This document shows, in pieces, positions 20,590 through 47,192 of a stretch of 64,000 bases of DNA. The notes beneath the pieces were generated by a model, which searched no databases, had not been told where the DNA came from, and saw nothing but the letters and a program-made list of their open reading frames with translations. A program made the translations under genes and the position numbers. Source of the DNA: Rosa chinensis (lineage: Eukaryota; Streptophyta; Magnoliopsida; Rosales; Rosaceae). The stretch is taken from NCBI RefSeq assembly GCF_002994745.2, contig NC_037089.1, forward strand, positions 87,258,347 through 87,322,346, read 5' to 3'. Every line of letters starts with the position of its first letter. Position 1 is the first letter of the stretch.

Positions 20590-20739
20590 TTACGTGTGAT
20601 ATTTATTTATGTAGTTTTGTTTGATCACTTATCCATATATTGGTATAATCAGAGATTTGATGAGTTATGTCATCATATTTACGCAAGTAGAAGTTCAGAA
20701 AAGAGATTCTCTGGATCGAATAGTGACTTCCAATAACTC

Positions 20740-20747
20740 TATAAATA
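20740..20747 (+). promoter_or_regulatory. TATA box of beta-glucosidase 1
   Basis: TATAAATA in the context ctCTATAAATACTTGC, 98 bp before the start codon. The same block with similar spacing precedes beta-glucosidase 2 (37605), so it is conserved between the duplicates. Confidence 0.8.
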
Positions 20748-20844
20748 CTTGCTTTATGTAAAAGCATTCTCCATCCCGCTAAACACTCTTGCCCCCTTCT
20801 AAGTAGCTACTCGATCTCACTCACAAACACACCCAGAAACCACC

Positions 20845-24293
<3,449 letters not shown>

Positions 24294-25103
24294 TGTCAGT
24301 ACGTAGCTTTGGATTAGAAGAATAAGACAGAGCTTATGGCAAGAACTTCCTTTCCTTGTGAAATGCGGAATAAAAGTAGCTATAAGTTAAGAGTGGCACA
24401 CCATGCGCATGTGATGCCTTGCCTTGCCACTTGAACCCATGAATTTGTCGATTTTCAAGCAGGCCTTGCTTCTATTTCAGGATATTTTTCTTGTGTTTCT
24501 TGGTGTGATTTTTGCACTTAATTACTGGATATTTCAAATGACATGGCCTAAATATTGTCATTTTCATTCATATAATAAAATATCAGCTCTGCAAGCATGA
24601 TTAAAGCTGTAGCCGTACCTACTTCTTAGAGCCAATAATGGGTTCAACCCTGTCCATTCCTTATTCCTTTAACGTGTCGGGCCTTGTTTGTGTCGAACCC
24701 ATAAGCGGGTCGTGCTGTGTTCATTTCGGGCCAAAAATTAGAATCAATTAAGAGCAAATTTATAAATATAAGTTGCGACTCATATACCACTGGTTCCACT
24801 CTCAAAGTCACAGGTCTCAACTATACACAATCCAATCACAAACCAAAATAATAAGTGACAAATTCTTTTGTTTAAAAAGCAGTTGACTTCATCATCAAAG
24901 TAATAAATTTTGAACAAAAATGTCTAAAGAGGAATCCAAATTCACACTCAAATATATATTATCTTTATATGTAAATTTGTCGTTTACACTCAAATATAAG
25001 TTTATTGTCTATAAATATATATTATCTTTATATTATAAAGAAAAAAAATTAAATTATAGAAACGGGTCGGATCGCAGGCGGAAATATGTTGTGCTCGGGC
25101 GTG
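24294..25103. other. 3' flank of beta-glucosidase 1 and edge of an older repeat
   Basis: 24300-24640 is similar to the 3' flank of beta-glucosidase 2 (about 40700-41030), for example catggcctaaatattgtcat in both, so the duplication includes this DNA. From about 24670 the sequence becomes a GGGCC/CGGGTC-rich repeat. It resumes at 28037-28104 and again at 36482-36580, so this older repeat is interrupted by the two LTR insertions. Confidence 0.6.
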
Positions 25104-28031: not shown

Positions 28032-28109
28032 CCTATAACGGGCTCGGGCCAAGTTGGGTTAATGGGCTCATATAACTCGGCTTAGCCTGACCCGTTAGAA
28101 TAATGTGGT

Positions 28110-29759
28110 TGATAGGAGCATTTTAATGCGGTATTTTAATAGTTAATTCCTCACATTTTGCTTAGTTAATTCCTTAACGAATCGATTTTTAACTCAATTT
28201 CTATTTTCTTAGGTACATTGGAGTAAATGATGGTGAAATGAGCATTATGTCCACACTTACCTACAAATGGTGGAGATAAAATTGAAGTAAATGAGTAGGA
28301 AATCCATCATCATCATCACCCAAAAACATTCCATGTTTTAGGATGTAATCATCATGTTTTCTCCATCATTTCTCACACTAATCCACCATCATCATCACCC
28401 AAAAACATTCCATGTTTTAGGGTGTAATCATCATGTTTTCTCCATCATTTCTCACACTAATCCACCATCATCATCACCCAAAAACATTCCATGTTTTAGG
28501 GTGTAATCATCATGTTTTCTCCATCATTACTCACACTAATTTACTCCATCTTTTCCAATTTCACTCTTCTTTCTCTTCCCTATATAAACACATTGTCCTC
28601 TCATTCTAAAAAATATTCCTTCATCCATTTCATCTCCTTGTCTCTCCATTTCCTTTCCATTTTCCTTAGTCACCAATTCTTTCATCCATTCCATCTTCTT
28701 TGTCTCTCCATTTCCTTTCCATTTTCTCTCCATCCTCTAGTGCATTCAACATTTCAAGCAAGGCCAAGGGAGAAGAAGAATTGCCGTGAGCATCATCCTC
28801 CATCACCATCCTTGAAGCTTGCTTTCGAGATTCAAGAGACCACATCCATCTCACGGTGTAATCCGATTCTCCTTTGTAACCTTTGCTTTGATTTCGTTGG
28901 TTTTGTTCTAGTTGACATATGTGTTTGAATGAATATTAATTTCTGGAATTTTATGATTAATTGAGAATTTTCAGATTCATATTATTGTGATTCGAAGGTT
29001 GCTTATGTGGGTTTGTTTAATTAAATTTGCGTTATAGATAACTTTTGTATTTTAATCTTATGTGGTTGCAAACACTTAGGGTTTTGATATGAATGGTGCT
29101 AGGTTTAAGAACATGAAATCGACTTTTCGTTTTGTGTAAACTTGAATCAAAGTAGTAAAGGTTTTGTGCAAAGACCGAATTTAATTAAAGAGAATTGCAA
29201 TTAGGTGGACTTTTCCATACTAAGTTGTACACTTGAGTTGATAGCCTTTCACTATGTGTAATGCGTTAAACATGACATGATTGACTAGCTTTCTAGGGTT
29301 TGATTGCATGTTTGATAGGATTAATCTAGGTGCTTTCGCTTAGGTTAATTAGCATTGAAAAGTAAAAAATGGGAATTCATTTGCTTTCGAATGTTTCACA
29401 TGATCAACTCCTCTCTCATGACATTTAAAATCAACTATAGGAATTGTAATTGGATTTCTTGCATATGGATGTGGTTTTGATCTTTGTTCCTTGCGATCCA
29501 CCCTTGTATATATGTTTTTACATTTTCTTTATTTTATTTATCTTAATTTTCAATTCTATAATTCTTAAACCCCCCTCCCTTTTTATTTTGTTACTTGTAT
29601 ATATTTCTATTCTTTTATTTTATTTTTGTAAATAATACTTTTCTTTATTTGTTTCACAATTACAAGTGTACCCTCAATCCCCGGATAGAACGATCCCTAC
29701 TTACTTATACTACTAACGACATTTCAGGGTTAAATTATGCGCTTGCTTTGAGCGCATCA
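28110..29759 (+). repeat. 5' LTR (1650 bp)
   Basis: TGATAGGAG...GCGCATCA. It contains three tandem copies of a 79-bp unit (28304, 28383, 28462; ccaccatcatcatcaccc...) shared with the 3' LTR. A TATATAAA lies near 28580, a likely element promoter. Confidence 0.92.
28304..28540 (+). repeat. Three 79-bp tandem repeats inside the LTR
   Basis: Unit starts at 28304, 28383 and 28462. Each contains cccaaaaacattccatg and ends ctcacactaat. They sit just upstream of the LTR TATATAAA, a usual place for LTR enhancer repeats. The 3' LTR has the same array at about 35000-35236. Confidence 0.9.
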
Positions 29760-29764
29760 ATTTT

Positions 29765-29782
29765 TGGCGCCGTTGCCGGGGA
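29765..29782 (+). other. Primer-binding site, tRNA-Asp type
   Basis: TGGCGCCGTTGCCGGGGA, five bases after the 5' LTR. It is the complement of the 3' end of plant cytosolic tRNA-Asp (…CCCCGGCAACGGCGCCA) and sets the element direction as plus. Confidence 0.9.
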
Positions 29783-30549
29783 TTGAAAAATCACTTGCTA
29801 AATTGTGTCATTTATTGTATATATTTGTTGTTTAAAAATTGTTTGAAACTTAGTTTAAATTAACTAGAATATTATTTATATTATTGAACACGAATTTTAA
29901 TTGTAGGTTGTAAATTGAGAGGAATAGGTGAAGTCTCTTTTATTAATATTGGCCTAAACCCCTTATTGGTACCTAGCTCAGGTCCCTTAAGGTTGAGGGC
30001 GGCCTTTATTAACACTTGTTGAACTGTCTTCACACTTATGAACTTTTTCATCTTAGTAAGTATAGCCTATGTGGAATGGTGTCTAGGAAGGGGACAACGT
30101 TCATGACGGGTTTTTGAATCCAGAAGTGCTTGCAAATGGGCCTAAACCACAATGTGGGAGTAGCTCATGCCAAAATGGATTTTTCCTCTCGTGTTCGCCC
30201 TCCCCCACCTGGCCATTTCAGTAAGGTTGCCCAAACGATTTGAAAGGGAGTTTGTGTCTAGGCGACTATACTTGGGCCGCACGTCCACTTGATTTACCGC
30301 TTGGAATTTGATTCGATATCAATAATGTTTATAATAAAAGAAATACTTGTGAATACTCTATACGTGTAAATTATTTTGTTGTTTCACACTTTAAACTTGT
30401 AAAAATACTTTTCACGTTTTATACTCACTTGAGTACTTAACTTGTGTCTTATGTACATTATACTTGTTAATACTTGTAGTTTGTAATTAATAGTTATACT
30501 TGTTTTTATTTTGTATTTCTTTGTTAATTATAGTTACTAACTTTATTTA

Positions 30550-30869: not shown

Positions 30870-31010
30870 TTTTTGAGTCCTATATTTAAAAAAAAAATTA
30901 AAAAAAAAAAAAAAACTGCATTCATTCAGTCTTATTAAATTCAGCTATTTACAAAAAAAAAAAACAAAAAAAACAAAAACAAAAAAACAAAAAAAATAAT
31001 AATAATAATA
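30870..31010 (+). repeat. A-rich tract at the 3' side of the WUS-like gene
   Basis: Runs of A interrupted by C (aaaaaacaaaaaaaac...) and a short (aat)n. On the WUS-like coding strand this is T-rich, so it is not a poly(A) tail of that transcript. Confidence 0.8.
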
Positions 31011-31017
31011 CTCTAAA

Positions 31018-31668
31018 CTAAGCCATGTCTGCATCTTTGTAGGAGTTGAGGCTGAGCTCAAGGGAAATGCGAGAGTCATCGCCATAGCCGCTACCTCCCT
31101 CGGAAGTAGTCTTCATGTTGCCAAAGATGTCCTCACCATGCATGGGGAATAGTGGAAGGGTTTCAATCTCCTGGTGATCTCCTCCTCGTTGTTCCATGAA
31201 AGATTGTCCTCCTGTTGTGCCAAAGGAGGTAGTACTGGTATTAGTGTTGAAGGGTGAGGAGGAATATGGGTCAACACCATAGCCGACACGTGACCCAAAG
31301 TTTAGATCAATGGATCTACCATCATCAGTAGAACTAGTGGATCCAAAATTGAGATCGAGAGATCCACCAACCGGAACGTTCCGAAATTCCTTCAACTTCT
31401 GCCTCTCACGAGCCTTGAGGTTCTGGAACCAAAAGAAGACGTTTTTGTCCTCGATCTGCCCATACTGTTTTAGATGAAGGCAGATCTCTTGAATCTGCTC
31501 TGGAGTTGGGTACTTAAAACCCTTATCATAGTAAAGGCCCTTGAGGATTCTTAGTTGAGGCGGTGTGGGAGCCCACCGGTTATTAGTCCCGGCTGCTTGG
31601 TTGTTTCCTCCATCCTCGATTTGTTGCTGGGTCTGTTGCTCCATTAGTTGCAGAGTTCGTGGTTCCAT
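31018..31668 (-). CDS. WUS: WUSCHEL-like homeobox protein, intronless, inside an LTR retrotransposon (216 aa)
   Basis: Homeodomain transcription factor of the WUS clade of WOX proteins; WUS itself maintains stem cells in shoot meristems. The homeodomain is about residues 29-93 (NRWAPTPPQLRILKGLYY...KNVFFWFQNLKARERQK), with the long WOX-type spacing. WUS-box TLPLFPMH at 170-177 and an EAR-type LELSL at 203-207 are intact. Two extra SLDLNF/SIDLNF motifs lie at about 103-124. The helix-3 motif usually WFQNHKAR is WFQNLKAR here. Length 216 aa against about 290 in Arabidopsis WUS. No introns, whereas WUS genes normally have two, so this is a retrocopy. Start chosen at MEPR, 110 bp after a TATA box; the frame stays open upstream to 31938, but that part would precede transcription. 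It lies antisense to the element. Expression and function are unproven. Confidence 0.88.
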   Translation of the reverse strand: MEPRTLQLMEQQTQQQIEDGGNNQAAGTNNRWAPTPPQLRILKGLYYDKGFKYPTPEQIQEICLHLKQYGQIEDKNVFFWFQNLKARERQKLKEFRNVPVGGSLDLNFGSTSSTDDGRSIDLNFGSRVGYGVDPYSSSPFNTNTSTTSFGTTGGQSFMEQRGGDHQEIETLPLFPMHGEDIFGNMKTTSEGGSGYGDDSRISLELSLNSYKDADMA

Positions 31669-31778
31669 GTTGATGAAGAAAGGATTTGAGTTTCGAAAGA
31701 AAGGCTGAAGGGTTGAGAGAGAAAGGCTGGAACTCGGAAGAATTTTCTTTTGGAGTGAACAGTCGCTCAGAATGCACC

Positions 31779-31786
31779 TATTTATA
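31779..31786 (-). promoter_or_regulatory. TATA box of the WUS-like gene
   Basis: On the minus strand this reads ctcgttCTATAAATAGG, a near-ideal plant TATA box, about 110 bp before the MEPR start codon. It implies that the gene has its own promoter inside the element. Confidence 0.7.
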
Positions 31787-31893
31787 GAACGAGTGAGCAG
31801 ATCTCCACCGTTGGATCGACGACCTCTGAGATTAAATCTACGCGTTGGATTAAAGTCACCCGCAAACACGGAAAAGCTGTTGCCGCGTGGAAG

Positions 31894-32095
31894 ACACGTG
31901 AGGGAACCAAACGAATCTCGAGGAGCTGTGACAGACAAGCTACAGCAGAAAGCAGGTTTAATTGCCGTGAATCAAGGAAAAGAAAGGACGCGTGGGGGAA
32001 TCAAACGAATCTCGAGGATCCGTGACAGACAAGCTATAGCCGAAAGCATGCCATAAATCCAGGAAAAGAAAGGAATATTTACACGTGGGGGAGTT
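31894..32095 (-). promoter_or_regulatory. Tandem repeats with G-box-like cores upstream of the WUS-like gene
   Basis: Units start at 31894 (acacgtg), 31988 (acgcgtg) and 32081 (acacgtg), spacing 94 and 93 bp. The first two are full copies sharing 'caaacgaatctcgagga' and 'gtgacagacaagcta'; the third is partial. The first and third carry CACGTG, a G-box. Position upstream of the TATA box suggests promoter elements. Confidence 0.65.
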
Positions 32096-32270
32096 TCTTG
32101 GGCCGTGAACTATCATAACTCTTCTCCTTCCCGGAGAAGCTTTGTTCAAACCGTGTGTTTGTTGAGATTTCTACCCTATTTTGTGCTTCATATATACATC
32201 CTTTTTTGTCTCCTCCAGATTTTACTAAGGTTTGTCTAAGCGTGCAGTTTCAAATTCCTTCTACTTCCTC

Positions 32271-32801
32271 ATGGCTCAAACCAAGGTAACCCCTCGCAGG
32301 GGCGTCAATCAACGCCGTGTTCTCTCTTTGGAAGAAGAAGGTCGTCAAGCGGCCACTAGAGCTGGGCTTACTCGTCCATGGGACCATCGTCCTATCCGTG
32401 AGCGTACCCGTAGTCCCCCTCCTCTGCCTCGTCGCTCTCCCAGACTGCATCCCGGAGAGTCTTCTTCCTCACCAGCTGCTCGTGCTCCTCGGCCTATGGC
32501 CACCCTGGAAAGCTTGTCGGATTCGATTGATGATTTGCGTTCCTCTCTCCGCGATGGTATTATGGTGACAGATTGGAGAGTCAATTGCATGATCGATTAC
32601 ATCTCTGAGATGAACTGCTCTTTGATCCGCTGTCACACTGCAATAAACAAGCTTGCTCAGGAAGTCAATAACTTGCAGAGTTATCCTCCTGGGTTTCCTC
32701 GCAAGGACGCTACTGCATCACACCATGAGGACCCTCCTCAGGAAGCTGAAACCAGCAAGAGGGCTGCCACTCGCCCGCATACCGCTCCTCCAAAGGAGTA
32801 A
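32271..32801 (+). CDS. Unknown 176-aa protein of the retrotransposon, sense strand
   Basis: Starts MAQTKVTPRRGV, with an Arg/Pro/Ser-rich N-terminal half (RSPPPLPRRSPRL) and a predicted helical middle (SLSDSIDDLRSSLRDG..., INKLAQEVNNLQSY). It ends ...TAPPKE. No zinc knuckle, protease or polymerase motif was seen. It lies head-to-head with the WUS-like gene, about 600 bp between their start codons, and is followed by the aagcgctgcatgggaggcaa block. It may be a shortened gag-like or envelope-position protein of the element. It is intact but not recognised. Confidence 0.5.
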   Translation: MAQTKVTPRRGVNQRRVLSLEEEGRQAATRAGLTRPWDHRPIRERTRSPPPLPRRSPRLHPGESSSSPAARAPRPMATLESLSDSIDDLRSSLRDGIMVTDWRVNCMIDYISEMNCSLIRCHTAINKLAQEVNNLQSYPPGFPRKDATASHHEDPPQEAETSKRAATRPHTAPPKE

Positions 32802-33065: not shown

Positions 33066-34805
33066 CTTTATTGTGTTTTTAGTAGTTAGTATATATATAA
33101 AAAAAAAAAAATAGTTGATGTTGGATTGTGTTTTTAATTGATGTTGTGATACACTAAGGTATATTGGATTAAACATAGTCTTGAAAAAGGGTAGCTGTTT
33201 CAGTCCCATTGCACATCGAGACTCCCTGTTCCCGTACCTAAGTGTTGAAATTAAATTAATTTAAAAAAAAAAATGTTGGTTTTAGAGTGTTTTTGTGTGT
33301 TTGAGTCTTAGGATACTCCTAACGTCTAGGATGAACATGTCTCTGAATTCATGGCTGAAGGTTTTCACAATCGAAATAGGACTTAATTGAATTCTGTGGT
33401 TAATCGACATTGTGATGCTTGTATGAAGATTTGAGATAGGATTGTAACTTGGTTCATTAAGCATGCTAGGATTAAGTCTAATTCATTTGACCCTAAGTGA
33501 GTTGTTGAGCTAAAATACTTTCTTTTCGAGTGCTTATTGATAAATTCAGAATTTCATGGCTGTATATGCAAAACCTCATCTTTCTTTGAAAATCCAATGA
33601 TCATGTGCCATAGATTTTAATGGACTAGAGAGTACTAGAACTCGGCTGTTGTGACTGTCAAAACTTGTATGCCATAATATGCACTGATCCTGGATAGGAT
33701 AGAAGGCATTAGGGTAACCACCAAAGCCAAACAAGCTTGTGTCCCCAATTGTGCCCGTCGTGGGACTCCTTAGAATGAACCCCTTTGAGCCTACGTTGAA
33801 AACCTTTGTTTCATCACCCTCACTACCCTACCATGAGCTTAGTACAGGATATCTCTACCCTTGTCTTAAGGACTTAGTAGAGCATGACATAGTATGTAGG
33901 GGTGACGATGAAAGACAAGTGTGGGGTGGGGAAAATCCAAGAAGAAAAAAAAAAAATTTGCCTTGAAAAAAAAAAAAAGAAAGAAAGAAAGAAAAGCGGC
34001 AAAAGAGAAAAATTGAAAAGAAAACTCTTGGGAAAATGTTGAAGCGTGGTTTTGGACTTGCAAATTTGTAGAAGGCTCAAAGTTGAAAATTATGCCTTTG
34101 TCCATTCCCATGTTGGTTAGAGTGAAGGTTTGGCCCAAAACAATGATATTTGGTCTACAAAAATGATGACATAAGGTGGTCCTTATATGCTCTGCTAGGT
34201 CCTTAGGATTTTTTTGTATCCTTAATCTTCATTTCGAAAACCCTAGCTTAGCCCCATTACAACCTGTTTTAAGTGCTAACTTGATCCTTGAGATGGGCAA
34301 TCTTTGGTTAGTGGAGTCAGTTACACAGTCGAGCTTATGGTTTAGGTCCATTTGTGCACTTAGTCATTTCATGAGGTCTTTAAAAATTTCTTCACAAAAT
34401 GTGTTTATTGATGAAATATGCAAGCTGTTTGTCGCCTTACAATTTGTTCTCTTGCATATACTTGAGTGTGAAGCTTTTAAGCATAGCCATTTCTGAGAGA
34501 AAAATCGAGAGTATGCCCTGTGAGTTTGGATTGGACTTGTTCGAAACATGCTATCATTCACTGTATAACTTAAGTTCTCCATATCTTGCTTAGTCATATG
34601 AATGTCACAGGTTTATTAACCATGGAATTATCTTTGTGATTTTGATTAAGTGTTTAACGTGAAAGCCATGAGTTTGGAGTCTCTGAGACAACAGTTAGGA
34701 GCAATAGAGTCATTTACTTGCTTTTTGTCAAGTCTTTGTTCTGTTTTGGATTTTTTTTTGTTTTGTTTTGCTAAGGGACTAGCAAAAGCTAAGTGTGGGG
34801 GAATT
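33066..34805 (+). other. 3' non-coding part of the retrotransposon, with polypurine tract
   Basis: No open frame of note. A/G-rich runs lie at about 33940-34020. The element ends with aagctaagtgtgggggaatt immediately before the 3' LTR; the gtgtgggggaat part is the polypurine tract that primes plus-strand synthesis. Confidence 0.7.
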
Positions 34806-36476
34806 TGATAGGAGCATTTTAATGCGGTATTTTAATAGTTAATTCCTCACATTTTGCTTAGTTAATTCCTTAACGAATCGATTTTTAACTCAATTTCTAT
34901 TTTCTTAGGTACATTGGAGTAAATGATGGTGAAATGAGCATTATGTCCACACTTACCTACAAATGGTGGAGATAAAATTGAAGTAAATGAGTAGGAAATC
35001 CATCATCATCATCACCCAAAAACATTCCATGTTTTAGGATGTAATCATCATGTTTTCTCCATCATTTCTCACACTAATCCACCATCATCATCACCCAAAA
35101 ACATTCCATGTTTTAGGGTGTAATCATCATGTTTTCTCCATCATTTCTCACACTAATCCACCATCATCATCACCCAAAAACATTCCATGTTTTAGGGTGT
35201 AATCATCATGTTTTCTCCATCATTACTCACACTAATTTACTCCATCTTTTCCAATTTCACTCTTCTTTCTCTTCCCTATATAAACACATTGTCCTCTCAT
35301 TCTAAAAATATTCCTTCATCCATTTCATCTCCTTGTCTCTCCATTTCCTTTCCATTTTCCTTAGTCACCAATTCTTTCATCCATTCCATCTTCTTTGTCT
35401 CTCCATTTCCTTTCCATTTTCTCTCCATCCTCTAGTGCATTCAACATTTCAAGCAAGGCCAAGGGAGAAGAAGAATTGCCGTGAGCATCATCCTCCATCA
35501 CCATCCTTGAAGCTTGCTTTCGAGATTCAAGAGACCACATCCTCAATTCGTTCATCTCATGTCCATCTCACGGTGTAATCCGATTCTCCTTTGTAACCTT
35601 TGCTTTGATTTCGTTGGTTTTGTTCTAGTTGACATATGTGTTTGAATGAATATTAATTTCTGGAATTTTATGATTAATTGAGAATTTTCAGATTCATATT
35701 ATTGTGATTCGAAGGTTGCTTATGTGGGTTTGTTTAATTAAATTTGCGTTATAGATAACTTTTGTATTTTAATCTTATGTGGTTGCAAACACTTAGGGTT
35801 TTGATATGAATGGTGCTAGGTTTAAGAACATGAAATCGACTTTTCGTTTTGTGTAAACTTGAATCAAAGTAGTAAAGGTTTTGTGCAAAGACCGAATTTA
35901 ATTAAAGAGAATTGCAATTAGGTGGACTTTTCCATACTAAGTTGTACACTTGAGTTGATAGCCTTTCACTATGTGTAATGCGTTAAACATGACATGATTG
36001 ACTAGCTTTCTAGGGTTTGATTGCATGTTTGATAGGATTAATCTAGGTGCTTTCGCTTAGGTTAATTAGCATTGAAAAGTAAAAAATGGGAATTCATTTG
36101 CTTTCGAATGTTTCACATGATCAACTCCTCTCTCATGACATTTAAAATCAACTATAGGAATTGTAATTGGATTTCTTGCATATGGATGTGGTTTTGATCT
36201 TTGTTCCTTGCGATCCACCCTTGTATATATGTTTTTACATTTTCTTTATTTTATTTATCTTAATTTTCAATTCTATAATTCTTAAACCCCCCTCCCTTTT
36301 TATTTTGTTACTTGTATATATTTCTATTCTTTTATTTTATTTTTGTAAATAATACTTTTCTTTATTTGTTTCACAATTACAAGTGTACCCTCAATCCCCG
36401 GATAGAACGATCCCTACTTACTTATACTACTAACGACATTTCAGGGTTAAATTATGCGCTTCCCAAAGGCGCGTCA
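34806..36476 (+). repeat. 3' LTR (1671 bp)
   Basis: Collinear with the 5' LTR. It has one A fewer near 35307, 22 extra bases near 35540-35561, and a different last 15 bases (cccaaaggcgcgtca against gctttgagcgcatca). It still ends in CA and is followed by the GTGGT duplication. Confidence 0.92.
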
Positions 36477-36584
36477 GTGGTCGGGTCATGTCGGGCTTCT
36501 AACCGGCTTGACTCAGGTCGGGCAGCTTTTAAACGTGCCGGACTAGTGTCGTGCTCTGGCCTAGCGGCTCGTTTGCCACCGTTA

Positions 36585-36652: not shown

Positions 36653-37604
36653 CTGATCGACATATATAAACAAAAGATATAAATACACAACTGCCAAGTT
36701 TTACACCTATTTTTTATTTTTTTTAATCAAACAGTTTATTATATTAATGAAACCAACCAAATCATTAGAATAGTAGAACTCATTACAAATTTAAGCTTGA
36801 CTGAGTCTAATGCAGAGCAAAAACAACTTTGCCCTCGGAGAAAAATTGATTAATAATCATCCCCCGCTAAGCACCCCATTGTGGTAAAAATAACTAATAT
36901 TTATAAGAATGCTCATAAAAGAGCTTCTGCTAGCAACAAAGAACAGAATCTTAGGACCTTAGCAATGAACATCTCCTTCCTTCTCGAGGAGGAGGAACTT
37001 GATTTTCTTGAGAAAATGGAGACACAACGGCGTTGTGAAAACATAGCTAATTATCATGGGGCCCCACATGTAGAGGACTGAAGCCCATAAATGAATTGTC
37101 GGGATTACGAACCCAATCCAAGACTACTGGATAATTTTTCCTATACCATGGCCGGTAGTTAATGATGAAATTGGACTGTCTTGAAGTAGTTGTGATTTAT
37201 CCTATGCTCAAAGTCTTTCTTGCTTCAAGGCTGGTGCCTGGTGGGCACTGGGTACTACGTTAACGTGGTTAGAGAACTTCCAACTCCCTTTTTTTATTCT
37301 TCAGCCATGCAAAAGACAAGGTCGCTCAAAATATCGCTCATATTTTTTAATCATCAGCCACGCAGTACACGTTAGAATGTTAGATAAACTATGACGTTGA
37401 TACAGTGTTGTTTAATTATGTGTAATATTTATATAGTTTTCTTTGATCACGTATCCATAATATTAATGTTATTATAGACACGAGGTGTTCATGTTAAAAA
37501 AAAATTAAGAAATATGAGGAGTTATATCATCAGATCTACACAAGTAGAAATATAGAACAGATTTTCTGGATCGAACAGTAGTGATTAGTGACTTCCAATA
37601 ACTC
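36653..37604. other. Intergenic and promoter DNA upstream of beta-glucosidase 2
   Basis: No gene recognised. The last about 200 bp are similar to the beta-glucosidase 1 promoter (tagttttctttgatcac, ttctggatcgaa, gtgacttccaataact). The MULE and MITE insertions of promoter 1 are absent here. A frame at 36881-37081 is of unknown nature and is not called. Confidence 0.5.
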
Positions 37605-37612
37605 TATAAATA
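37605..37612 (+). promoter_or_regulatory. TATA box of beta-glucosidase 2
   Basis: TATAAATA in ctCTATAAATACTTGC, 92 bp before the start codon, in the block shared with beta-glucosidase 1. Confidence 0.8.
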
Positions 37613-37703
37613 CTTGCTTAATGTAAAAGCAATCTCATCCTGCTAAGCTCTCTTGGTCCCTTCTAATTAAGCAGCTACTCAGTAAAAACACCCAGAAACC
37701 ACC

Positions 37704-40692
37704 ATGGCTCTCAGTCTAAGCTTTTCGTTGCCAGCGTCGGCAACAAGAGCACCGGTCAGCTCCTTCAGGAGACTACCGAGCCGTACTCCAACGGTGAAAG
37801 CCGTAGGAGTGTTCCCATCTAAGAGAATTGATCATAAGAGGGCCATTAGAATTAGACCATGCTCTGCATTGGGAGATCTTACTTCAGCATTAACAAGTGC
37901 AGTTACTGATACTGCCGCCGCTGTTGTTGACGCTGCGACCACGATTGTTGATACCGTGACTGCGGTTGCTGATACCACAACCACAACTGCAACCACAGAA
38001 GTAACCAGGGCTGATTTCCCCACTGAATTCAAGTTTGGTTGCGCCACTTCCGCTTTCCAGGTTGAGATCGATATATCCATGATCTTTCTAATTTTTCTCA
38101 TGTCCAACTAGCTTGTCTCGTTTTAATTTTACAAATAAAGTCAACTTTGCAAAAGAAGTTTTATTTACGTGTTTTTCGTAATGCAGACAGAAGGATCTGG
38201 AACTGAAGGAGGGAGAGGACCAGCCACGTGGGATACTTACATACAAGATAACGCACTAGATGGCACAGAAATAGCCGTTGATTCCTACAACCGCTACAAG
38301 GTAATATATGCGCGTGACAAGAAGCTAGTATGTCCATTTATGTGACCAAAAATTAATGTCGCAGGCATTTTTATTGTATCCCTTAGGACGACGTGCAACT
38401 GCTGAAGAACATGGGAGTGGATACATACAGATTCTCTATTTCCTGGTCAAGAATCCTACCTGGTATACTTCATTTCCCGGCATTATTTTCAATATTACAA
38501 GTTTAGTTATATAGTTAGATCAACAAGATTTACGTGTTGCTGGGATCAATTTGTAGATGGAACCCTTGACAATATAAACCAGGCTGGTATCGATTTCTAC
38601 AACAACTTCATCGACGAACTGGTAGCAAATGGTATGCATGAAATATGAAACAATATGTTCACATGATAGCTTAAGTATGGGATCAAGTAGTGATTTGTTT
38701 TTGTATATAAATGTGCAGGGATAAGTCCATTTGTGACACTGTTCCACTTCGACTTGCCCACAGCTCTGAATACTAAGTACAACGGCTTCTTAAGCATTGA
38801 CATTGTGTAGGTCTCAAATTTCTTAGTAATCAAATCCGTTAATTATCTTTAGAGTGATGAGTTCTAATTCATTATGTTTATTAGGGAGGATTTCAAAGCA
38901 TATGCTGATTTATGTTTCAAAACTTTTGGCGATCGAGTGAAGTACTGGGCTACTATCAATGAGCCACAAGTGTGGGGGCAATACGGCTTCACTAACCCCG
39001 CCGCAGATGCAAATGCTGCCACCGATCCTTTTGTCTCTGCGCATAACGTCATATTAGCCCATGCTGCAGCAGCCAAACTCTACAAGACTACATACCAGGT
39101 TATAAGTCATTACTTAACAATCAGGATCTCATTTGGTTTGCAGATCAGAAGCTTCAGAATGGGAAAGTTTTCAGCTCCTTTTGGGTTGCTTTCCCATTCT
39201 CCTGCGAAATTCATTTCATTCCACAAACCAAACAAGCCTCATTTTTCGGTTCCTTAGATTATACTGCATACATTCACCACTTACCTAATTTGTATGCCTG
39301 CGTAGCCAACACAAGGAGGAGTGATCGGAATCCCGTCAGTGGTTGAATGGTTTGAGCCATACGAAGACACCGCGCAAGATAGAGATGCGGCCCGTAGAGC
39401 ATTTGACTTTAAGACAGGATGGTAATTAGCACTACTAAACTAAAACTAAATATTGATCCAAGTAGCTGCCATTCTGAGTGTGTGAATACCATTACTATGT
39501 ATATCGATCTGTCTCAGTCTTGGCGCAGCTCTATATTGATCTGTTTTTGTTTCCCTACTAAAATGAACTATTACTTACTAGGTTTGTGGAGCCCCTAGTA
39601 TATGGTGATTACCCATTTATCATGAGAGCTTTGGTGGGGGATGCACTTCCAGAATTCACAGATGAGCAGAAAGAGTTGGTAAAGGGCTCATATGATTACA
39701 TTGGGGTGAACTACTACACTGCCAGATTCACGATTTCTGTACCAATAACAAGCGATGATGTCTACGATGCGATGGATGATTACAAGCACGCTACCGAGTC
39801 AAGTACTATACTCATTTTGTTAATCCCTAGCTAGTACTACTTTCTTAAGAAGTAACAGATTGATCATAATTAATGATTATTGAAAACTCATAATGAACGA
39901 TTTCTATTTGTGTTTGTCACAGAGGTAGGACCAGATGGGGAGTACATAGGCGATGCGGTAAGTTCATTTCCTCCGCTAATTAATTTGTTAATTACAGTAA
40001 TTAGAATCCCAAACATGCTTTACTTACTTTAGTCTTATTTGGTAATTAGACACCAGGGAGCACCGAGATCTTCGTCTATCCAGATGGGCTAAGGAAGGGA
40101 TTGATTTTAATGAAGGAACTTTACAACAATCCCAAAATCTACGTTACTGAGAATGGTTAGTCATTTTGTTACTTGTTAATAATAGTCTTAACAAAAGCAA
40201 AATGTAGTACTAGAATTACTTCGCAGTTTACACTGGAATCTTTATTACCTTGCTCTTTCAACAGGATATCCGGGCGCACGAGATGACACCATTCCAATAG
40301 AAGAGGCTTTGATTGACGATGTTCGAATTCAGCACATCAAGGATCATCTCGCCGCTATCAAAGATGCCAGAGCGTAATTACATAACAATACATCTTGCAA
40401 ATTAAACTCCAAGATTATTAATCTGCTAATTATTTTAACAAGTATACACTGGAACCTGGACTAATGGACGTGTGCTTGACATTGTGATTGCAGTGCGGGA
40501 GTAGATGTCAACAGTTACATAATGTGGGCACTGATGGACTGCCTGGAGATGGGATCCCTATACGCAGTTCGATTCGGTCTCAACTACACTGATTATCTCA
40601 ATGAATTGGCCAGAACTCCAAAGAAGTCCGCCGCCTGGCTCAAAGATTTCTTGGCTTCAACCACTTCAACCACTACAACCACTTCCACTTGA
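37704..40692 (+). CDS. Beta-glucosidase 2, GH1 family, plastid-targeted type (12 exons, 569 aa)
   Basis: Tandem paralogue of beta-glucosidase 1 with the same 12-exon structure: 37704-38060, 38187-38300, 38387-38462, 38557-38631, 38719-38806, 38885-39098, 39306-39421, 39582-39802, 39923-39957, 40050-40155, 40265-40373, 40494-40692. The frame is continuous. The transit-peptide region is longer than in copy 1: an Ala/Thr-rich stretch with repeated AVxDxxT units precedes the GH1 domain. Acid/base E263 (TINEP), nucleophile E466 (VTENG). It shares the unusual HFD, DCLEM and shortened post-TINEP loop. Differences include one codon fewer in exon 4 and one more in exon 10, and LYAVRFG for GYQVRFG near the C-terminus, so a conserved glycine-tyrosine pair is altered. 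The substrate is unknown. Confidence 0.93.
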
Positions 40693-41166
40693 TGTGGGCG
40701 GCTTTGGATTCGAATAACAAGACTCGCATAAGATCTGAACTTCCTTTCCTGGTGAAATGGGGAATAATAAGTAGCTATAAGTTAAAGAGTCCTTGCGTAC
40801 ATGCCATGCATGTGATGCCTTGCCTTGCAACTTTGAATGCATAAATTTGTCGATTTTCAGCACGCCTTGCTCTTCTATTTCAGATTTTTTTTTTCCGTGG
40901 TGTGAAATATGCAATTACTGGAAATTTCACATGACATGGCCTAAATATTGTCATCTTCGTTCATATAATAAAATACCAGTTCTGGAAACATGATCAAAGC
41001 TGTAGCAGTACCGCTTCTCAGAGCCAACCATGGTCTCTCATCATCTTTCCCTTCGATCTCATCCTATACTACAACCAGAACTGTATCATTCCTAAACCGA
41101 AAGCTACTACAGTATGATGGCATTCTGGCATACAAAATGTATACAGGATTCCTGATTTCCTGTTAG
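40693..41166. other. Convergent 3' region between beta-glucosidase 2 and SYN2-like A
   Basis: 3' flank conserved with that of beta-glucosidase 1 up to about 41030. The two genes converge here with 474 bp between stop codons. Confidence 0.6.
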
Positions 41167-44100
41167 CTATGCACATGAATCCATAGGTTCGAAGCTGTCT
41201 CTGTTGACCGTATCGTCTTCCCATGTTTGATCCCATTTGTGGAGCTTACGGAGTAGAATGTCACCATAGGCTTCATCTTGCTTCACATCCACATACCCAT
41301 TAGTTCTCAACACCTGACATATAAACAAGAAAAACAAATAAATGTGTTATAACACAACAGTCAAAGTTTACACCCATTATGCTTTAAGGTTAAATACCAT
41401 TCACAACAGGGGAAAGAGGATGCCAACGTAAAGTTTCCGTTACATACTAAAATAACTAAGAGGCAGCTCGTGCAAATTATGCACAAGCAACTCAATCTAA
41501 ACTCTGAGAAAAAAAGTCAACTATATAGAAGAGATTGGTTCAGATATATCATACCAGTGTCTCATAGAACAACCTTGCACTTTCTTTCTTGGTTTTTCCT
41601 TCTGAAACCTGCAACAAGTTCACTTCCTCCTCTCCTCGATTTTTACAATTTGTGAATTCTCTATGCAAGTACCTTGCAACCACTCTGTAACCAACAAGTC
41701 GAAAGATGAATAAAATTCTTAGAAGAAAAAATTAACCCTGAAGATTACCAAAAGATTTCAGAAGCCAATCCACAATACCTGGTTCTCTTTGACCACCCAT
41801 CTACAACAGAGAAAAGGTTTGAAGTCAAACATGAGTGACACATTAATAGAGTAAACAAGTCAAACAAAAGTAAGCTTAATGAAATCAATTTAGATTCTTA
41901 CCCAGTTCAGGGTTAACTCCCTCACATAAATCAGGTTCCTGAGGCAAAAAAAAAAAATGAACATAATCAAATAAAAGAGAGGGATGAAGAATAACTTATT
42001 CATTCCAGAAGCAAAAGAGAAACAGATGGTGTCATCTACATGTCAATCAATAACTTATCTTTTATTCTTTCCTTTACAGACGAACTCCAAAGTAATCAGT
42101 ACTTACCTCATTCAATAAATTGAAATCATGCTCTTGAACCTTGTCCAAAGATGGTACTTCTACACTTTCAGATGGGTAAGCTTGTTCATTTCCCATAGAT
42201 GGCTCTTCCTCTATCCTTCCGGATGGCTCAGGTATCACCATATCCATATCACGAGCTTCGGGGCTCTTTGGACTATTGAATGATTTCATTGATGTTGAGT
42301 GAAGGACAGGCGTTCCTGGTGCAATTTCTATTTTCTCAAGGATAGGGGTTCCAGGCTCAATTTCTATTTGCTCAAGGACAGGTGGCCCTGGTGAAGTTTC
42401 TACTTGCTCTGGTCTACCAGTACTTGGAGGTTCTAACACATCTAGCTTTTCTGGAGGTTCAACAGTTTCAGCAGATTCTATTATGCTTTTGTGGAAGAGC
42501 GACCTAAGCTCCTCTGAAACACCTGATGAAGATATGGTCAGAAATAGTTTCAAAACTAGTGAAGAAGCAAATAATGACAGCAAACTTACTAGGTATCAAT
42601 GGTTCCAAGAAATTCCGGGATAGGTTTCTAAGCTGACAGGTTTTCCAGGCAGCAAGGGCAGTTTCAGGAACCTTTCTTCTTTTTGAAACCAAGTCACTCG
42701 CATCATTTATGCTTCGCTTGATTACCCTGTAACATTTAAGTGTTGTTTCTCATGCCTTGCTCAACTGATAATCCATTATGCAATCATTAAAATCCGACGT
42801 TCCATCAGAACTATAATGATGGATGCACCAAACATCATTATACTTGCTAAAAAAAGGAATGTAGAAAATCACTAGCGTCTAAATGGGTAAAACAGGAAGA
42901 CTTCAACTAAACGTAAAGGAGAAGTAAACCATGACGTACGTATTAGGCAGCACTACCATTTCATCAAAGGTACATTTCTTTTTCCTTTTCCTGGAGATTT
43001 GAGTAGCCTTCCTCATAGCTGGTGTGGGAATAACCCTCCTTAACTTTGGTGTAGTAACAACTGCACATCAGGAGAAACTATTTAGAACAAAATTGTCACA
43101 CAAGTTAAAGTTTCAGTTCAGATATATATTAAAAGCATATGATAAAACACAAAAGAGTGTTACTAAGCAGAAAATAGTAACAACTCTGAATATTAGAGTG
43201 CTAAAGCAACGCCATGGGTTGAACAATTATACCAATTGAATATGTAAGATCATATAGGAAATGAGATATTTTCACCTAAAGCCTCTGAATCTTTTCCAGC
43301 AGTAATTTGACAATTCACATTATCTGGTGGAATCGTGTCCTGTAACTTTGTCGGCTCTCCATCCTTATGATTCTCTTCCCCATATGAACAAACAGGTTTT
43401 TCAGGTTTCTTTAAGTCACAAGACTTATCAAGGTCCATGTTCTCTTCTAGAGCAGGTGTACAACTTTTCAGGTTTCCCCTGTCAGCTTCCAAGTTGCTTA
43501 GATTGTGGTCTTCTCTTGTAACTGGACACATTTGATTTTCTGATTGCATGATAATCTCCTCTCGAATAATGTGGTGATCTTCACCAGATGATGTAACATG
43601 ACAGGAAGGTTCCAGGCTTGCCTCTTCTTGAATTCCATCAACAGACTGGACTACAGCAGGAGCCTTTATTTGCTCCCCATTAATTTCGTGATCTTCACCA
43701 AATGGTTCAACTTGGTTTAGGGGCTCTTCTTCAATGCCAAAAAATGTTTCATGGTTCAGACCTTTTTCCTCAGACCTAAGGTCTGGAAGCTTTTCCTGCC
43801 TTGCTTCTCCTAGAGTCCCACCTTCAGACAATGCTATATCCGGAACCTTTATCTGTTCTCCATTAGTTTCTACTTGAGAGAACCTACTCTCTTGAGGATT
43901 CTCCATGTTTACTTCTGGGTTAGCTCCACTCCTCGACGTCCTTAACTCCATATCCAATTCCATCCCGTCATATGAAAGTACACTGAAGACAAAAATACTT
44001 TGTTAAATTACATTAATGGAAAATACAGAAATACTGAAAAGAAGATTGGATGTAGAGAATTTACAAGTTTTCAGGATCCACAGAAACATACTCTCTGCCT

Positions 44101-45877
44101 GGAATGTAATTGGCAGAAAAGATACCACGGCAGGGACCAAATTCCTCGTAATCATACTGCACATACACAAAATGACATGTTAGGGGAATAAATGTGATGA
44201 AACTTGATTAAACCAATAAACATGCCAATAAGGAACTTGGAAACCATAAAGAACTGTTTGTAATGAGAAAATGCAAGACTTGAAAAGAGATGCTGCTTAG
44301 GACTGAAAAGGAGAAAAGAGACCCTGATGACAAGTTAAAGAGGACAAGATATTATGCTAAAGGAAGATGACAAAATAGTCAATGAGCATTGGATTTACCA
44401 TATCTGATGAAAATTGTCCTACATTTCCCTTTGGACAATCTGTTTCACATCATGCTGAACTGTTAAGATTATATTCAAATAGAATAATATAAAAAGAACA
44501 TTCAAGACCACAAATCAAATACCTTTAAGTGTGATAGCTTCGTAGGATACTTCATTTCCTCTGAAAAGCAAGGGAAAATTACATGTTAATTACAATGACT
44601 AGACACAGAATATCACTGATTACATGGTTTTAAGTTACATATCTTACCCACTGACATCTTCAGGAAGTCCCAAATCAAATGCATCAAGTTCAAACCTCTC
44701 TGGTAGGGTAACAGAGTCATAAGGCGCACAAAATGTATCTGTGTCTCCCTTCTCTTTTGTGCTAACAACAAACTTGTTGATTTCAGTTAGCACTTCGTGG
44801 CAGTCATCAAAAAGGTATTCAACTTTTTTTGAGTATATTCGAACAACACCAAGAAGAAGGTAGGCTAGTACCCTATATGCGATGACATCCCAATCATCCT
44901 TCAAAATTTTATCTGCACAACAGAATATGAATATCGGATGCTTAAGGTTAGCCAGTACTAAATAGCATGAAGTGTTACTTTCAATATCAAAGCCAATAGA
45001 AACAAAGTAAATGTCACGTCACGTTGACGATACAGACACCATTAACGACAGCATTCCAAAAGCGCCACTCTAAATATAAAAGCAAAAACAAAATCCTATC
45101 AAGTTGACAGAGTATATCAAAACATTCTTACTGTTGAATTTTAATAGTCTTCAAAGTTTTCTTTCCCATTTTCCTACTTCCCAGCAAAGCAAGAGCATAT
45201 GCTACCTAAGCAATTTAAATTTTTCAAAGTCCAATGAGTGAACCATCTTCAGTATAAGTGAAAACATTAAACGGTCATAAGTGAAAAGTTATAAGAATCA
45301 AATAAATTCTCCACAAGCACCAAAAGAACATAATTTCCCCTCAATTTCTGTCGTCTTCCTAAATCTTCATATGAAAGAAACTCTTAATAACACAACTAAA
45401 CACACCTCTAGATTCTGCAAACAACCAATTATTTCCCCTAAGCTTTCCAAGTCTACCATTCACAGAATACACAAGAAACCAGCCAAATGATTGATCACAG
45501 TAGCAAATGACAAACCCAGAAACAAGGTGACAAAACTGAGATGACTACAAATGAAACATGAAGTGATCACCAAATATGGAACATCTAAGCAAGTGATAGT
45601 AAATGAAACACACAGAGTAATCCAAACAGATTATGGAGAACAAGTTAACAAGAACTAGGCTCTCAAATTATCTAAACAGAAAACCCATGTAAAAATCTAT
45701 GCTTTTGTTGAGAAAAGATGAAAAAGGTTTCATCTTTGAGAGAAAAAACGAACCAACAGAGGCTGAAATGTCAGTTTCAGCGACCTGGGCCTTCTTGAGC
45801 TTTTTGAAACAATAGGCAGCAACCCATATGGAGCCTAAACGCCCTTTTCTTGATAAGAGACACTGTGAGTAAAACAT
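41167..45877 (-). CDS. SYN2: Sister chromatid cohesion protein (RAD21/SCC1 kleisin), SYN2-like, copy A (13 exons, 758 aa)
   Basis: Alpha-kleisin subunit of cohesin, which closes the SMC1/SMC3 ring and is cut by separase. Exons in coding order: 45754-45877, 44648-44912, 44523-44560, 44399-44439, 44065-44156, 43276-43982, 42940-43060, 42590-42726, 42107-42522, 41902-41938, 41779-41800, 41555-41684, 41167-41313; frame closes throughout. The N-terminal Rad21/Rec8 domain begins MFYSQCLLSRKGRLGSIWVAA and includes RVLAYLLLGVVRIYSKKVEYL; the PERFELDAFDLG segment is typical of plant SYN2/RAD21.1. The middle (exon 6) is acidic and holds two NGEQIK(V/A)P units. A basic ISRKRKKK stretch could be a nuclear signal. 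The C-terminal winged helix contains ARYLHREF, SARLFYETL and YGDILLRKL. Arabidopsis SYN2 is about 810 aa. Confidence 0.9.
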
Positions 45878-47192
45878 GCTTTGGTTTTTTCACTTCAACC
45901 TTTCAAAGTTTGAAACTTTGAGTCTGCTTGTGTTTCATAGAAGCAAATGCAAATTTGGAGAATTGCAGGAAATGAAAAACGGAGTTGGGGGAGGAGAAGA
46001 AACGGTCGAGTGGGTTTTAGTGTGCCCTGTAAGTTTCAGGAACTCCATAGGAGACAAAAGACATAAATAGACAAACCCAAAATTGGAAAAGTCAAGAGGC
46101 CAAGGATGGATTATATACCTATTTATGGTTTCATTTTGGAATTTGGAATGTGATTTTGAATTCAAATTCTACCTTTCCAAATATTGAAGGATACTATATG
46201 ATCGTGATTTGAAACATACCCTATGTATTTTATTTTTTGTAGACAAGCCACTTCGATTATGTTAGTGAGTTAGAGTTCGTAATACACTCACGTAATTATT
46301 CGGATCAAGGTCTACGAGAATATCCTAGTATAACCAGACTGATTTTCTACACTAATTTTCCACAACAGGCGCGCGAACTTGAATGTCCCTCAAACGTGCC
46401 GGTTACAAACTAGTGAGATTTGAGACTCGTACGCTAGACAATGAAATTTTATGTTAAGTTAGTTGATCAATCTTATCAGACAAATTTTTTTTTTTTTTTT
46501 ATGTATTTAGTAGTTTTCATTATGTCTTGTTTAATTTTAACTCTTTTTCCATAACTCTAATTTGGCTTTTATTGCATTAAGAACATTGTGTAAATTTACG
46601 CCAAGTTCTTTTGGTATATTTGTGGGTTGTCTTGCCAGTTTTTTTCTTTGGTAAGGAAAAGGGCCATTAATGTAATTCAAGATGACAAAAGGAAAGTATT
46701 TGAATTTGAAATGACTAATTAAACGCATGTAAAAAATGCCACCTCAAAATTGTTGTTGTGCTGGATGTTAATCATCATGGACGCGTGTAAGGACAACAAA
46801 TTGACTGCGTGTCACTTACCAGGTGTTTTCAATGAGATAAATTGTCTAGAATACCCAACAGACCATTTTGATTCCCATGCATCCCAGTAATCCTACAAGG
46901 CTACAATGAAAATAGCAGAGCCCTAATTAATGTTGTCATCTTCATAACTTCAATCACATGATAACACCGTTTCTGGTAACAAGAGAAGCAGTACTAACAT
47001 TTTCAGACCTAACCTACCGTATATTTCCATTCCGTCTCAACCTATAGCTACCATACAACCAGAGCTAGTTAAGTCGAAGCTGGGCATGAACGATCTGTTA
47101 TAGCCCCTGTAGCTCTCTTTACATTGCTCTAATGCGATCTAGTCTACGATGGTGGCAATGTGGAATATCAGTCGCGCAGTTCCTAATTCTAG
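45878..47192. other. Spacer between the two SYN2-like genes
   Basis: Holds the promoter of copy A (right of 45877) and the 3' flank of copy B. No gene recognised. A T-run lies near 46485-46500. Confidence 0.5.

Follow-up and report, generated by a model that had tools for sequence, protein, structure and literature searches.

A WUSCHEL-related frame carried antisense in young LTR retrotransposons of Rosa chinensis, and signs of selection on its protein

The stretch of DNA analysed in this work, referred to as the window, comprises 64,000 nucleotides of the forward strand of Rosa chinensis (assembly GCF_002994745.2, contig NC_037089.1, positions 87,258,347 to 87,322,346) and harbors, inside an 8.4-kb long terminal repeat (LTR) retrotransposon and antisense to it, an intronless frame related to WUSCHEL (WUS). 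As stated in the original prediction, which was based on the letters alone, the frame runs unbroken through 216 codons and its product possesses a WUS-type homeodomain, recognized by Pfam, together with exact matches to the WUS-box TLPLFPMH and to the EAR-type motif LELSL. The homeodomain is the sole Pfam domain of the protein (7.1e-11), and the best match among solved structures is the homeodomain of Arabidopsis WUS (E 6.6e-22), aligned without gaps; the only other one, STENOFOLIA, required a one-residue gap. The gap-free alignment with WUS agrees with the presence of the extra residue of WUS-type homeodomains. In the AlphaFold model the homeodomain is confident (89-95 in blocks of ten residues) and the rest is poor (mean 55), and the modelled homeodomain matches the WUS crystal structures 6ryd, 6ry3, 6ryl and 6ryi, bound to TGAA, TAAT and G-box DNA. 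No further WUS copy was found elsewhere in the window by a tblastn search of its 64 kb.

The same prediction placed the frame in a young LTR element flanked by a 5-bp duplication, and GTGGT is indeed present on both sides of two near-identical LTRs with TG...CA ends, whose alignment contains no substitution outside its last 25 columns, seven inside them, together with 23 columns of gaps. Of ATG-started frames of at least 120 aa, the element contains only two, i.e., the antisense WUS frame and, on the sense strand, open reading frame 2 (ORF2); no pol domain was found by Pfam in either of them, and the element, being devoid of gag-pol, must therefore depend on another element for its machinery. 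The search of the rose genome with the window frame returned at least 161 matches (the best 150 of 681 candidates were scored), and contig C2 holds 76 of the 116 tabulated ones. At 30 loci out of 30, including the window's own, the frame is accompanied by the LTR end, the primer binding site region, the 5' internal DNA and at least part of the putative promoter region, ORF2 being matched in 28 of them, with its full 176 aa in 24; the suggestion that the element is a multicopy vehicle for the gene is thus borne out. A 5-bp target duplication was detected in all of the eight complete elements, the window's included, and it is different in each of them (GTGGT, AGGAG, ATCAA, ACAGC, ATGGT, CTGGC, CACCC and GCGCG); a ninth stretch, L031, is incomplete and falls outside this count. 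In seven of these elements the two LTRs share 99.5% identity or more, and in the eighth (L036) they share 98.9%. Judging from its sequence, the window element is a very young, multicopy, non-autonomous LTR retrotransposon, whose family is referred to as F1. Among the 120 best matches to the window protein in the protein database, 66 are rose proteins or, for four of them, rose-like ones, and the rose copies are annotated as WOX genes.

Normal WUS genes, as had also been pointed out, contain introns, and the native rose WUS, located at C2:11.71 Mb, is interrupted by two of them (86 and 335 nt). The original prediction had named a unique native locus that merely received flanking LTRs as the outcome opposed to its own; nothing was found in favor of this possibility, which was rejected because the intron-bearing native gene lies elsewhere and the window frame recurs at other sites inside the same element, and whose probability is virtually nil. 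An old copy at C2:65.62 Mb (L104), carrying three TAG stops, runs straight over both exon joints (93, 97 and 97% identity in the aligned pieces), includes at least 75 nt of the 5' leader and leaves the WUS homology in the last codons, before the stop codon. Since it lacks exactly both native introns, the source of the captured gene must have been a spliced mRNA. A retrogene-type 3' poly(A) tail with a target duplication of its own was not found, the A-rich stretch 30880-31000 being on the wrong strand and no systematic search having been made for a duplication flanking the frame. In a tree of 27 proteins, the native rose WUS, sitting on a zero-length branch, groups with all the copies (97/87), while the native WUS of Argentina, Fragaria and four others fall apart from the rose group, which places the capture in the rose line; another tree, of 65 proteins and excluding 14 truncated rose entries and 42 of 54 native ones, puts the natives on one side (100/99), both trees being built without any other WOX class. 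If R. chinensis and R. rugosa both inherited the gene, the capture would predate their split. Overall, it is almost certain that a spliced WUS mRNA was reverse-copied in the rose lineage and that the resulting retrogene was then spread by LTR elements.

F1 is not the only carrier. A second genome search, performed with a more native-like rose protein, returned at least 261 matches, distributed over all seven main contigs (the best 150 of 684 candidates were scored), and in the one element examined, on contig C5, a 193-aa WUS-like frame lies antisense in a different LTR element, F2. Its LTRs (about 1.24 kb, about 99% identical, TGTTTGG...CCAAACA) are flanked by GCCGA duplications, and its primer site and purine tract differ from those of F1; no LTR pair was found around another frame, L079, within its 8 kb. 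Twenty-two F2-type frames were read, two plus twenty further ones in list order, of which 13 are intact; among the other nine, eight stay in frame and contain between one and three stops, while the last carries a frameshift. F1 and F2 have in common a 375-bp block (29921-30297 in the window, 2682-3061 in L080) that is more alike than their WUS frames and may represent either a shared module or a recent exchange. In addition, WUS-like frames form clusters at C5:82.33-82.45 Mb and 85.31-85.73 Mb, with a spacing of tens of kb, some of them aligned over 249 aa and some containing stops; this suggests a local duplication of early captured copies.

Seventy F1 frames, i.e., those of the 30 loci and 40 of the 86 further tabulated matches, were read for the analysis of selection. 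Their lengths (588-678 nt) are all divisible by three; 64 frames are intact, six contain one stop (a CAG to TAG change in four cases), and none is frameshifted. Over the whole frame the pairwise ratio of replacement to silent differences (pN/pS) is 0.50 (0.31-0.82), and it is very unevenly distributed, being 0.047 (0.015-0.143) in the homeodomain, where pS is 0.041 and pN 0.0019, 0.040 (0-0.196) in the WUS-box and EAR motifs, 0.54 in the linker and 0.75 in the N-terminus. The changes counted on a tree (silent/replacement) are 31/9 in the homeodomain, 13/2 in the motifs and 45.6/72.4 in the linker, and the silent divergence of the homeodomain is comparable to that of four noncoding stretches (0.020-0.056, in 20 to 29 of the 30 loci). 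The 21 in-frame F2-type frames give a ratio of 0.37 (0.24-0.58), with 0.19 in the homeodomain and 0.17 in the motifs, and a contrast between the functional parts and the rest is also detected at the protein level in 27 F1-like entries (p 0.0001) and in 51 rose entries (p 0.0045). The low ratios of the homeodomain and of the WUS-box/EAR motifs as compared to the linker therefore indicate that the protein is under selection, and it is very likely, as far as sequences can tell, that purifying selection has acted on it in both F1 and F2 frames.

It might be argued that WUS was transduced by chance and that the copies are intact merely because they are young, a passive scenario to which the near-identical LTR pairs, marking the insertions read as recent, lend some credit, and for which there is precedent, the transduction of genes into LTR elements being described as ordinary and as leaving one or few gene copies (PMC7264820). 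However, youth alone predicts a ratio near 1, very different from the pS and pN values of the homeodomain in the 70 copies; the homeodomains of native WUS and F1 diverge by a dS of 1.12 with a dN of 0.147 (omega 0.13), and the F2-type frames show the same pattern, so that an explanation based on chance and youth appears very unlikely. Another possibility is that the antisense transcript matters rather than the protein, by giving rise to double-stranded RNA or small RNAs directed against the host WUS or the element itself. The antisense orientation with its own TATA box would fit this idea, and roles of antisense RNA have been discussed for such elements (PMC7264820), but a need for complementarity would hold silent sites, and these change far faster than replacement sites in the homeodomain and in the motifs. 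Moreover, more than half of the silent sites of the homeodomain (21.5 of 37) differ from the native gene, which would make for poor targeting, even though the WUS-box block is closer. An action through RNA alone is thus regarded as quite unlikely.

The captured protein has changed considerably. Compared with a native WUS of about 300 aa, the copies (216 aa in the window) have lost the middle of the protein, and their homeodomain has diverged. Where the native WUS of Rosa, Argentina, Fragaria and Prunus shows HNFGS, the copies have SxDLNFGS, often repeated. The pattern [DN][LI]NFG is present at least once in 52 of 66 rose-type proteins, at least twice in 39 of them, and in none of 54 non-rose WUS proteins, and the same pattern occurs exactly twice in 68 of the 70 F1 frames and once in 20 of 21 F2-type frames. 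We take this motif to resemble the DLN class of EAR motifs, minus the proline; by analogy, the gained motifs would provide further contacts with corepressors. In a set of 53 rose-type proteins, which omits 14 truncated rose-type entries, the core of the homeodomain is fixed, WFxN retaining its W, F and N without exception (53/53), and the WUS-box and the EAR motif evolve at 0.31 and 0.16 times the rate of the rest, respectively. In the window copy, the block around the WUS-box hardly differs from native WUS, silent sites included (dS 0.14), and the comparison of this value with the 1.12 of the homeodomain implies that the gene is a mosaic and that its tail was probably renewed by a copy resembling the native gene. 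This bears on the earlier claim that the frame has been kept and not simply carried: the part resting on constraint stands, with pN/pS far below 1 in the functional parts, while the perfection of the WUS-box may partly reflect such an exchange. The opposite outcome named in the original prediction, a ratio near 1 with stops in most copies, is not what was found, an in-frame stop being present in only 12 of the 150 listed genome copies.

Several observations weigh against a selected function of the protein or against its usefulness to the element. The 70 F1 frames were picked by their best protein match to the window, which lowers the apparent replacement rate; such a sampling bias cannot easily create the sharp regional contrast, and the F2-type frames also speak against an artefact. 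The remaining part of the C-terminus is unconstrained (pN/pS 1.77, 0.51-13.4, pairwise, and 1.22 on the tree). The ratio of terminal branches (0.31) is lower than that of internal ones (0.61), contrary to a simple scheme in which selection gives way to decay; the low terminal value, not fully explained, might stem from recent insertion or from mosaic exchange. The protein-level contrast is not clear in five R. rugosa entries (p 0.47) and in nine basal ones (p 0.08). Across the 53 rose-type proteins, which span subfamilies, the homeodomain evolves at 0.86 times the rate of the rest, the corresponding figure being only 0.09 in 54 native WUS and 0.22 in eight Rosaceae natives. Nine of the 22 F2-type frames are broken, and many older WUS-like copies among the genome matches contain stops. 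The sites TAAT and TGAATGAA are not enriched in the LTR and give no support for a direct control of the element by the protein. Lastly, a trans-acting protein does not obviously favor the very copy that encodes it, and 359 of 364 rose-only WOX genes are reported as almost silent in rooting cuttings (PMC11405225). All these points considered, the whole reading, from the capture through the spread by LTR elements up to and including a selected function of the protein, is assigned a probability of about 85%.

According to this reading, a spliced WUSCHEL mRNA was reverse-copied, and one descendant lies antisense in the non-autonomous F1 and a diverged version antisense in F2; the captured gene has kept the homeodomain, the WUS-box and the C-terminal EAR motif, lost the middle of WUS, gained the repeated DLNFG and reached a number of well over a hundred among the copies scored. 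Its transcription might start from its own antisense TATA promoter. The ATG of the frame is preceded, 118 nt upstream and on the same strand, by a TATAAAT (31786, read down), and the region also contains a 62-bp duplication (31893-31954 and 31987-32048) and two CACGTG boxes (four counts on both strands). The product would be a small nuclear factor that, acting in trans, might bind WUS-type DNA sites via the homeodomain and recruit TOPLESS-type corepressors through the WUS-box, EAR and DLN motifs; from these motifs, it is rather probable that the protein is a DNA-binding, corepressor-recruiting factor.

The plant germ line descends from shoot stem cells. The likeliest benefit for the element might thus be that expressing cells are kept in, or put into, a stem-cell-like state, or that host genes restraining the element are repressed, new insertions thereby reaching the germ line; a benefit of this kind, linked to the meristem and the germ line, is the least certain step and can be put forward only tentatively. 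A bolder version, which we consider doubtful, is that of a selfish element exploiting a master regulator of stem cells in order to propagate itself, i.e., a plant counterpart of a retroviral oncogene. In that case, a factor multiply armed with EAR motifs would bias the cells expressing it to a stem-cell fate or lift the restraint imposed there by the host, and transposition would thereby take place in cells from which the germ line is founded; the presence of the same module in two LTR elements with different ends would mean that a winning weapon has been exchanged, and the native WUS of roses might suffer interference from it.

A further possibility is that it is the host that benefits, the copies having been domesticated by the rose as a WOX gene family. 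Their annotation as WOX genes points in this direction, as does the expression of a few of them, 5 of 364 in rooting (PMC11405225), and 32 WOX genes of chromosomes 2 and 7 respond to virus infection of roses, their expression falling alongside that of RNase H/reverse transcriptase genes (PMC12423424); we infer that these 32 genes are element copies. Domestication is nevertheless unlikely, since the copies read sit in elements of recent insertion and their number is very large, in contrast to a retained gene family, and the selection is seen over copies differing in site and LTR type.

Table 1. Features of the F1 element and of its WUS-like frame (positions in the window).
Feature	Positions	Strand	Basis
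Left target-site duplication, GTGGT	28105..28109		Same five bases at 36477-36481
5' LTR, 1650 bp, TGATAGG...GCATCA	28110..29759	+	LTR pair
Three 79-bp tandem units within the 5' LTR	28301-28540	+	Repeat comparison
Primer binding site TGGCGCCGTTGCCGGGG, 17 nt, 5 nt past the left LTR	29765..29781	+	Exact 17-mer in 28/30 loci (L001-L030)
Block of about 375 bp, about 92% identical to the second WUS-bearing LTR element	29921..30297	+	Comparison with L080, 2682-3061
WUSCHEL-like frame, 216 aa	31018..31668	-	Unbroken, antisense to the element; Pfam, solved-structure match, 70 copies read including the window's
EAR-type motif SLELSL, residues 202-207	31048..31065	-	68/70 copies read
WUS-box TLPLFPMH, residues 170-177	31138..31161	-	Exact in 70/70 copies read
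Two SxDLNFGS repeats, EAR-like (DLN), rose-specific gain	31291..31362	-	Comparison with native WUS
WUS-type homeodomain, residues 31-91	31396..31578	-	Pfam, solved-structure match, model compared with WUS homeodomain crystals
Putative antisense promoter region	31669..32270	-	TATAAAT, duplicated 62-bp unit, two CACGTG boxes; CTATTTATAG in 27/30 loci
ORF2, 176 aa, sense strand	32271..32801	+	Protein and genome searches
Polypurine tract core GTGGGGGAA, ending 2 nt before the right LTR	34795..34803	+	Position
3' LTR, 1671 bp, ending in GCGTCA	34806..36476	+	LTR pair
Right target-site duplication, GTGGT	36477..36481		Matches the left copy

As for the other features of the element, its primer binding site is presumably of the tRNA-Asp type, which would be no more than a hint of Athila. 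The final 15 or so bases of the two window LTRs (29745-29759 and 36462-36476) are unlike, reading GCTTTGAGCGCATCA and CCCAAAGGCGCGTCA, respectively; in other elements (L032 and L038) both LTRs of a pair have ends of one and the same type, similar to these, and in L034 five of the six LTR differences fall in the last 25 columns. The unlike ends look like the outcome of a template switch or of an exchange at the U5 end. An autoregulation of the LTR via known WUS sites was considered and rejected on the basis of the two sites mentioned above, ATGATGG being enriched in the LTR owing only to the tandem repeat. ORF2 belongs to no Pfam family (best value 0.095), its model is helical but of low confidence (mean pLDDT 59.6), and the protein search returned six homologues, two of which from Rosa chinensis. 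In the genome it is matched in 150 of the 150 copies scored (the best of 693 candidates), two of them with a stop, and its pN/pS over 26 loci, two with a stop, is 0.49 (0.29-0.87). An autonomous gag-pol partner was not found among the best 40 of 3530 LTR candidates, which were those scored and in which the readable pairs lie 4.3-7.2 kb apart. Shorter pairs of LTRs of the same family, 4.3-5.3 kb apart, were observed at C2:81602658-81607603, C2:73845237-73855329 and C7:2534414-2540319, with three such LTRs in a row at 73.8 Mb on C2; they are perhaps shorter derivatives without the WUS frame. In the rest of the window, the element is inserted between two paralogous blocks (20651-24635 and 37508-41027, about 85% identical), and a second pair follows (41164-45856 and 47190-51830, about 77%), whose minus-strand frames 43250-43963 and 49269-49967 belong to no Pfam family; ordinary host genes encode an mTERF protein (54478-55512) and an ankyrin-repeat protein (60375-61607), both on the minus strand.

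The rose copies have a counterpart in the literature. A 'RcWOX' family of clades I-V has been described, with 381 genes in R. chinensis, 226 of which on chromosome 2, 170 in R. multiflora and 105 in R. rugosa (Duan et al. 2024, PMC11405225). The window protein includes the clade IV motif YGQIEDKNVFFWFQNLKA without any change, and both TLPLFPMHGEDI and ISLELSLNSY are found within motifs of clade V. The difference lies in the interpretation, the genes being treated there as ordinary ones, for which whole-genome duplication is suggested, with no collinear pairs and further evidence asked for; 'transpos', 'retrotranspos' and 'LTR' occur nowhere in the main text of that paper. From a comparison with the 381 published genes by motif and count, the excess of rose WOX genes is probably explained by transposition and not by genome duplication, and the published gene counts and expression results would need re-reading. 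Titles and beginnings of abstracts, in a literature without preprints and with only a small share of subscription papers, revealed neither a published link between rose WOX/WUS genes and retrotransposons nor a report of LTR elements in which selection has maintained a WUS-derived transcription factor. Relatives of WUS in viral contigs were not confirmed either. As far as the literature examined shows, a selected host transcription factor inside LTR retrotransposons is uncommon in plants, and the data suggest that the element uses the captured protein. This opens the way to testing whether transposons of plants gain access to the germ line by manipulating the fate of stem cells, and whether the antisense extra frames of other families do similar work.

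Such frames are known in Grande (gene23), RIRE2 and Retand, where, as in F1, an antisense internal frame occurs in most copies and is suspected of a role in transposition (PMC7264820, PMC11963269), that of Grande also having its own promoter (PMC7264820). No clear similarity of these frames to other proteins is described in the former of these papers, whereas the rose frame descends from a named developmental gene; moreover TRP28 (PF04195), present in 97% of Retand clusters (PMC11963269), is absent from F1, none having been found by Pfam in the window frames. Orchid Ty3/Gypsy elements resemble the rose ones in that a host-type domain, an m6A demethylase, has been fixed in an LTR lineage, and differ in that an enzyme is carried by 25-kb elements instead of a homeodomain transcription factor (PMC9289625); in the angiosperm domain screen of the same paper, as described in its text, homeobox and Rosa are not mentioned and a B3 DNA-binding domain is listed in Aegilops. 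Maize Bs1 is likewise an LTR element containing host coding sequence (PMC7264820); in contrast, the rose frame is antisense, exists in well over a hundred copies and is under selection. Finally, with WUSCHEL itself, both of Arabidopsis and of the native rose locus, the protein shares the extra-residue homeodomain, the WUS-box and the EAR motif, and it departs from it in its shortened, intronless and centerless form with two gained DLNFG motifs and a diverged homeodomain.
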